Shown: positions 2,071-2,265 of the stretch, piece by piece
Layout: each line of letters begins with the position of its first letter
Numbering within the stretch: position 1 is the first letter of the stretch
Made by a program: the position numbers and the translations under genes
The notes under the pieces: generated by a model
Seen by the model: the letters and a program-made list of their open reading frames with translations, nothing else
Database searches by the model: none
What the model was told of the DNA's origin: nothing
Origin: a virus
Length of the DNA stretch: 27,041 nucleotides
IMG/VR virus record: IMGVR_UViG_3300034106_004090
Coordinates: 1 to 27,041 of that record
Direction: 5' to 3' (one strand)

Positions 2071-2073
2071 AAG

Positions 2074-2092
2074 AAAAACCCGCCGAAGCGGG
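2074..2092 (-). terminator. rho-independent terminator of the pqqA-like unit
   Basis: Read on the minus strand this is CCCGC-TTCG-GCGGG followed directly by TTTTT. The ultrastable TTCG loop and the T run are both on the minus strand; on the plus strand no T run follows. Sixteen bases (AGCCCGCTTCGGCGGG) are identical to the tmRNA terminator at 8084-8099. Confidence 0.85.
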
Positions 2093-2114
2093 CTGTCTTG
2101 ATCACTAACAACTA

Positions 2115-2189
2115 TTAGCGATTAGCGATATACATGGTGATTTCAAAACCAAAACGCATATCTTGTGCTGAAGGTGTAGTCCATGCCAT
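2115..2189 (-). CDS. pqqA: PqqA-like PQQ precursor peptide (24 aa)
   Basis: A minus-strand frame encodes a 24-residue peptide ending [13 protein letters not shown]. PqqA is the ribosomal peptide whose Glu and Tyr side chains become the redox cofactor pyrroloquinoline quinone; PqqE joins them and host proteases and PqqB/C/D finish the molecule. The family hallmark is E-x-x-x-Y. Here it is Glu16 and Tyr20, the same positions as in classic 23-24 residue PqqA peptides. The neighbouring GFE.TMY..R pattern and the N-terminal W..P are also typical. An AAAGGAGA site lies six bases before the ATG, a TATAAT box lies 50 bases upstream and a strong terminator follows. No pqqB-E is in the window, so host enzymes would be needed. 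It is isolated on the opposite strand to its neighbours, which suggests acquisition as a unit. Confidence 0.85.
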   Translation of the reverse strand: [24 protein letters not shown]

Positions 2190-2238
2190 GTTAGTTCTCC
2201 TTTGATAAAATTAACATACTGCATTAGTATGTAGCTCT

Positions 2239-2244
2239 ATTATA
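2239..2244 (-). promoter_or_regulatory. -10 box for the pqqA-like gene
   Basis: TATAAT reads on the minus strand, placing a start site about 40 bases before the pqqA ATG. No good -35 hexamer lies at the usual distance (AAGATT at 17 bp), so an activator or a phage factor may be needed. Confidence 0.5.
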
Positions 2245-2265
2245 TGGCACAGGTCATGCTGAATC

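Follow-up and report, generated by a model that had tools for sequence, protein, structure and literature searches.

In its conversion to the redox cofactor PQQ, the precursor peptide PqqA is consumed at one molecule per PQQ made. In the PqqA/PqqE RiPP pathway, the Glu and Tyr of PqqA are joined by PqqE with the help of PqqD (PMC5715301). Coutinho et al. 2020 described PqqA in the Lake Baikal Methylophilaceae phage population VP_266 and reported that methanol dehydrogenase is encoded in the populations VP_139 and VP_266 as well (PMC7678222). In reservoir sediment viruses, virus-encoded pqqA, pqqE and pqqD have been listed, annotated as phosphate-solubilisation genes (PMC13188868). In cellular genomes, the Methylophilaceae have 3-12 copies of pqqA beside what is usually a single set of the remaining pqq genes (PMC4109929); this difference in copy number suggests that substrate dosage matters.

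Here, we present an analysis of a DNA stretch of 27,041 bases, a complete virus record that we refer to as the window, in which an initial annotation based on the letters alone had proposed a pqqA gene and had stated, without database searches, that it knew of no described phage pqqA. One is described in PMC7678222; together with PMC13188868, this article rules out that the locus is the first phage pqqA ever found. As in VP_266, where phage-borne PqqA has been suggested to boost the PQQ available to quinoproteins of the host, the gene is carried by a phage; unlike VP_266, to which we liken it by description and not by sequence, the two long virus records that match the window (G001 and G002) have no methanol dehydrogenase match, and the host is likely another member of the Burkholderiales. 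The locus resembles the orphan extra pqqA genes of bacteria (3-12 copies in Methylophilaceae, PMC4109929; 0-2 in our candidate hosts) in being an extra precursor gene, whereas those lie in cellular genomes and this one lies on a virus. It shares viral pqqA with the sediment viruses of PMC13188868, in which the gene was assigned from annotation, and the Glu-x3-Tyr substrate core with the pathway of PMC5715301, while the modification of the phage peptide is a prediction.

Results

The window contains a PqqA gene

The pqqA gene and the features that surround it are as follows.

2115..2189, minus strand: pqqA, 24-residue PQQ precursor peptide, ATG to TAA, with Glu16 and Tyr20 (translation, profile models, six-frame search)
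2190..2204, minus strand: ribosome-binding stretch, CAAAGGAGAACTAAC before the ATG (sequence)
2239..2244, minus strand: TATAAT box, ~50 nt 5' of the ATG (kept in two relatives that have diverged further upstream; absent from the sigma-70 scan output)
2077..2094, minus strand: intrinsic terminator downstream of pqqA, a TTCG-loop hairpin followed by a T-rich tail (terminator scan; conserved in the related records G003 and G006)
1992..2070, plus strand: tRNA-Leu(caa), the convergent neighbour of pqqA (ARAGORN)

The peptide scored 39.4 bits with PF08042 (E 5.7e-10; curated cut-off 21.1) and 38.4 bits with TIGR02107 (E 7.6e-10; curated cut-off 20). It contains the Glu-x3-Tyr cross-link pair (E16, Y20), its 24 residues are within the range typical of PqqA (~22-25), and the gene has its own ribosome site, AAAGGAGA. 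A six-frame search of the entire 27,041-base record returned this locus as the single PqqA place (E 1.4e-10), and a degenerate DNA pattern for GFE[IV]TMY had a single occurrence in the window, while none of 100 shuffles contained it. A search of solved structures gave no match, and the peptide had no PHROG match. We conclude that 2115-2189 on the minus strand is a PqqA gene. Thereby, the identity proposed from the Glu16/Tyr20 pair holds, and the outcome that would have spoken against it, the lack of a significant score with a PqqA model, did not occur.

The ribosome site and the TTCG-loop terminator that had been noted on either side of pqqA were both found, and the terminator ends the pqqA unit ahead of the convergent tRNA-Leu. 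Between 1900 and 2400, counting both strands, there are 3 terminator-like sites versus 0.2 in shuffles. As for the TATAAT box of the initial annotation, the motif is present and conserved in two relatives, while the rest of a promoter is not evident: in the promoter scan, the box at 2239-2244 had no -35 partner and was absent from the sigma-70 sites listed, and the number of TATAATA motifs in the window, 3, is close to the 2.7 expected by chance. When the window is aligned with G003 and G006, the box is seen to be conserved with the bases that follow it, TA[TC]AATAGA[GA]CTACATACTA, as is the terminator, whereas the sequences diverge further upstream. The box is a tentative promoter prediction, for which this conservation is better support than the motif itself.

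The pqqA gene is located in a virus genome

Two further features of the window bear on its source and its host.

7688..8107, plus strand: permuted tmRNA of the betaproteobacterial type with the tag ANAANDEVFALAA, a clue to the host group (Rfam/ARAGORN)
8417..9442, plus strand: pstS, phosphate-binding protein, a clue to the host (profile model)

Bases 1-25,059 of the window are 100% identical to parts of G002, a virus record of 171,839 bases, and bases 1-14,379 are identical to G001 (166,408 bases). A gp23-type capsid match was obtained in both G001 and G002 and in none of the 14 genomes of bacteria and archaea that served as controls; a terminase match was obtained in G002 and also in 6 of the 14 controls. 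Neither model matched the window itself, which has 9 tRNA genes (ARAGORN) and PHROG matches for thymidylate synthase and an ATPase. No annotated phage record was close to the window DNA, with short matches covering 0-1% of a 25-kb query among the matches listed; with a 281-base query round pqqA, the only match on the gene among 20 listed was a short one in phage P19250A.

The cell-like genes of the window (GroEL, AhcY, PstS and a porin), its lack of gp23 and terminase matches and the response of the terminase models to control genomes could be taken to mean that the contig is bacterial DNA wrongly labelled as viral. We consider this extremely improbable. The perfect identity of bases 1-25,059 to a 172-kb record with both gp23 and terminase speaks strongly against it, as do the absence of gp23 matches from all 14 controls, the phage ATPase and thymidylate synthase, the tRNA cluster and the permuted tmRNA; moreover, the same kind of pqqA gene occurs in cultured phages. 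We conclude that pqqA sits in a virus genome.

Several other features of the window deserve mention in their own right. pstS is followed by a gene for a phosphate-selective porin O/P (8417-10855 for both), possibly a phosphate-uptake pair on a phage. An adenosylhomocysteinase gene (ahcY, 13447-14742) scored above the NCBIfam cut-off; SAM-cycle genes of methylotroph phages are also discussed by Coutinho et al. (PMC7678222). Within the tRNA cluster, 1534-1908 encodes an RF-1 domain protein (124 aa, PF00472) with a GGGGQ stretch. A tRNA-like gene at 952-1024 scored 42.9 bits with Rfam and was not reported by ARAGORN, and a cut-off tRNA lies at 1-61.

A freshwater Burkholderiales host is likely

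Using PstS queries that started two codons upstream of the gene, at 8411, we found that the nearest relatives among the matches listed come from MAGs of freshwater-type Burkholderiales (the best five at 75-78%), which are labelled Oxalobacteraceae or Burkholderiaceae. Four of ten such genomes encode PqqA in 1-2 copies each, with one 24-residue peptide in three of them and another in the fourth. The first of these peptides is identical to that of the window at 21 of 24 residues, and the nearest candidate host copy is identical at 60 of 72 bases. With a peptide too short for tree building, at 24 residues, and a host that is itself a prediction, descent of the phage gene from a host copy is a possibility. 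Of 300 sampled genomes of the order, 59 had a PqqA match. The best scores were those of G039 and G038 (88%), and G076, with a different peptide, also reached 88%. G039 and G038 are also among the PstS-nearest genomes. Phage P19250A, whose host is LD28, can serve to calibrate such matches: its PqqA equals, residue for residue, that of 1.3-Mb genomes in the same order.

All five candidate host genomes have PqqE over the cut-off, and all five have PQQ alcohol dehydrogenase matches, four of them over the cut-off. On one contig of G039, the models gave, all over the cut-off, the order pqqB, pqqC, pqqD, pqqE and a PQQ dehydrogenase of the methanol/ethanol family. G036, one of the five, had no PqqA match. 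The pqqA copies of candidate hosts are on contigs C60 and C18 of G039, C183 and C405 of G037, C30 of G038 and C211 of G040; because these are apart from full PqqE, the host copies may be orphans, too.

AhcY does not favor these genomes over others: 21 genomes had a full-length match (71-74%), of which only G236 and G238 were also PqqA-positive in the sample of 300, and in G039 the best piece covered residues 146-431 (72%). We set aside Methylophilaceae, the first guess for the host, because PstS and the best PqqA matches point to other Burkholderiales, a choice that AhcY did not support. Nothing was found in the candidate hosts that shows methylotrophy, and methanol dehydrogenase, which the initial annotation gave as an example of a host quinoprotein served by the phage gene, is a conjectural target for this phage. 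Altogether, the PstS and PqqA matches point to a likely host among freshwater Burkholderiales that has PqqE and PQQ-dependent dehydrogenases of its own and that, judging from how the MAG records are titled, likely falls outside Methylophilaceae.

pqqA genes in virus records show a sign of purifying selection

The GFE[IV]TMY DNA pattern was present in at least 120 stretches of IMG/VR. A PqqA-like peptide of 23-25 residues could be read in 120 of 120 loci; the Glu/Tyr pair is present in all of them, as the pattern itself requires. A ribosome-like motif precedes pqqA in 118 of 119 loci, one locus being too near to its contig end, versus 12% of all ATGs. Single-linkage clustering of these 120 loci and seven from phage isolates or genome records, with shared protein matches as the links, gave 11 groups (109, 7, 2, 2 and seven singles), while megablast gave 64; both counts are rough, because single linkage may merge mosaics and short loci may look unlinked.

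Among 111 distinct virus-record sequences, the window included, pN/pS was 0.35 over 6105 pairs with the seven pattern-fixed codons excluded; these pairs are non-independent, and some of the contigs are possibly bacterial. This ratio is a sign that the copies are under purifying selection for function. gp23 or terminase was above the cut-off in 10 of 30 larger records tested, two of which (G004 and G005) have no pqqA; some contigs among the pattern loci may not be from phages.

The phage seems to carry the substrate gene without the modifying enzyme

We searched 46 viral records for PqqE, 45 of which have pqqA and which include 40 of the at least 120 pattern loci as well as the window record (G000), G001 and G002, which represent one population. 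None had PqqE (TIGR02109) over the cut-off; weak matches below the threshold were seen in 4 of 46, as they were in 14 of 14 control genomes. PQQ alcohol dehydrogenase (TIGR03075) was matched in one of the 46 records, G011, the same one as in an earlier search of 20 records, and had no match in the window and its relatives (G000-G006), some of which are fragments. G011 (L286) is a 72-kb IMG/VR record with pqqA, the PQQ dehydrogenase match and, by eye, formate-dehydrogenase-like and curli-like neighbours; it had no gp23 or terminase match. Because its surroundings look bacterial and these phage markers were not found, we gave G011 no weight; it may be bacterial. With PqqE over the cut-off in none of the 46 records, the phage would appear to contribute substrate alone. 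A radical SAM protein encoded at 4835-6382 was considered as a phage PqqE and rejected: it matches Radical_SAM, with several B12-type models below their cut-offs, and TIGR02109 had no match in the window.

A substrate that seemingly comes alone, without PqqE, could also serve as a decoy or switch, with the peptide occupying PqqD/PqqE or another radical SAM maturase and lowering PQQ, or as a RiPP-type signal or counter-defence. For such a role, a precedent is a PqqA-annotated RiPP family co-expressed with two nearby defence systems (PMC11118758). However, a decoy need not be kept as a good substrate, and the cross-link region is kept, the peptide shares 21 of 24 residues with a candidate host PqqA, and the P19250A peptide is identical to that of 1.3-Mb genomes of the same order. 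We regard a decoy or signal as improbable.

Cultured methylotroph phages carry stand-alone pqqA genes

A tblastn search of 50,697 annotated phage records with the peptide matched 12, of which ten were retained: four records of Melnitz and one each of P19250A, Venkman, MEP301, MEP401, MEP402 and a Manatee Spring podovirus. The other two, both of Acinetobacter phage MD-2021a, were dropped; one of them, CAKLQF020000010.1 (L293), has the bacterial pqqA-pqqBCDE arrangement beside polyphosphate kinase and fur and looks like a chromosome deposited as a phage.

Venkman, MEP301 and Melnitz are OM43 phages reported earlier, to which PMC10580990 adds MEP401 and MEP402; the host of P19250A is LD28 (PMC7678222). 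In P19250A, Venkman, MEP301, MEP401 and MEP402, pqqA is covered by no annotated feature, while a hypothetical ORF is annotated antisense to it in Melnitz-1 (MZ577095.1, L292:2967-3062) and in the podovirus (MW202481.1, L297:2067-2195). In all six cultured OM43/LD28 phages examined, i.e., the five OM43 phages and P19250A, the gene is unannotated or lies beneath an antisense ORF; the true denominator of methylotroph phages is larger, because MEP431-434, Venkman EXVC038S and further phages that entered the taxonomy later are outside the collection examined. The suggestion of the initial annotation that so short a gene escapes gene calling is borne out in the phage records examined.

The peptides of all seven loci checked (six cultured phages and the podovirus) passed PF08042 and have the Glu/Tyr pair; five of the seven had no match in a PHROG search. 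The gene of the cultured phages is like that of the window in encoding a stand-alone PqqA, here of 23-24 residues, that passes PF08042. It differs in belonging to other phages and hosts (OM43/LD28), with peptides 63.6-70.8% identical to that of the window. Melnitz is assigned to Kyanoviridae and MEP401/402 to Zobellviridae, while the records of P19250A, Venkman and MEP301 give no family. In the 4,086-base stretch of MEP401 surrounding pqqA, this gene is the sole DNA in common with P19250A, MEP301, Venkman and Melnitz, a pattern that separate gain or exchange of the gene would produce.

No word beginning with "pqq" occurs in the main texts on MEP301, MEP401/402 and Venkman, and in that on Melnitz there is one such word, within the culture medium. 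Within the open-access literature searched, including the main texts on these five phages, no report of pqqA in cultured methylotroph phages was found.

pqqA is unevenly distributed among close relatives

Through the neighbouring phosphatase-like or radical SAM protein, we reached 23 related virus records. pqqA was present in six and not found in 17; because many of these records are short fragments, its absence is weak evidence. The relatives without pqqA include G005 (168 kb) and G004 (114 kb), records that may be incomplete. Ranked by identity of the phosphatase-like neighbour, the six relatives with pqqA come first (75-100%), and in four of them this protein is identical to that of the window. 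The initial annotation had named absence of the Glu/Tyr pair from related phages as evidence against its reading. This outcome was seen in part: the gene itself was not found in the 17 records above, but the pair is kept wherever pqqA is present. Compared with G003, the tRNA-Leu and pqqA block (1993-2246) is 94.5% identical, versus 70-80% for the flanking long matches; elsewhere, one tRNA is 94.8% and a stretch in the groEL region 84.6% identical. The high identity of the block fits either recent exchange or stronger constraint.

This pattern could also be read as that of a passenger, a small host gene without function taken up by chance beside a tRNA. pqqA lies beside tRNA genes here and adjoins tRNA-Leu in Melnitz-1, its block with tRNA-Leu stands out against the flanks, and it was not found in 17 of 23 relatives. 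Against a passenger speak the pN/pS of 0.35 among the virus-record copies, the ribosome-like sites in 118 of 119 loci and the occurrence of pqqA in cultured phages of different families (Kyanoviridae and Zobellviridae, with others unassigned). We consider a passenger unlikely, if somewhat less so than a decoy or signal.

Discussion

Our findings support that pqqA is probably a phage-borne auxiliary metabolic gene that would provide the PqqB-E proteins of the host with extra PqqA substrate during infection. In this model, the phage PqqA would be bound by host PqqD, its Glu16 and Tyr20 cross-linked by host PqqE, and the product matured by host PqqB and PqqC. A replicating, translatable phage pqqA could add substrate dosage and sustain the PQQ supply during infection, and the PQQ-dependent dehydrogenases of the host may thereby be kept going. 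We infer the expression of the gene, the modification of its product by host enzymes, the rise in PQQ and the benefit to the phage. In Acetobacter, over-expression of pqqAB gave 29% more PQQ and that of pqqABCDE an eightfold increase, and the same article cites Gluconobacter work in which PQQ levels changed when certain parts, pqqA among them, were over-expressed (PMC7936290). Comparison of the two Acetobacter values indicates that PqqA may help and that the enzymes can limit, too, suggesting that PqqA is not the sole limiting step, at least in Acetobacter. Our model is also weakened by the 17 of 23 related records in which pqqA was not found, by AhcY, which does not point to the genomes favored by PstS and PqqA, and by the candidate host G036, which had no PqqA match.

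Within the literature described above, what is new is the breadth of pqqA in cultured phages, its occurrence on its own, the likely placement of our phage's host outside Methylophilaceae and the likely cause of the gene's neglect, namely the lack of a gene call, antisense calls and the lack of a PHROG match. Because pqqA is unlabelled in six of six cultured methylotroph phages, it may represent a common and overlooked feeding of host metabolism. More broadly, PqqA supply might be a general bottleneck that is relieved by phages of PQQ-making Burkholderiales, with a gene gained separately by many unrelated lineages, present in most phages of streamlined methylotrophs and, among auxiliary metabolic genes, one of the smallest and most readily missed; we give this wider proposal an even chance. 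The presence of pqqA in cultured OM43/LD28 phages makes it testable now whether, in methanol oxidisers under infection, quinoprotein metabolism is limited by PqqA dosage. If our model is correct, phages would commonly act on a redox cofactor through its peptide precursor, using a gene of 75 bases that annotation skips. It would also suggest that surveys of phage metabolic genes that rely on the usual gene callers and PHROGs miss very short precursors of the RiPP type.
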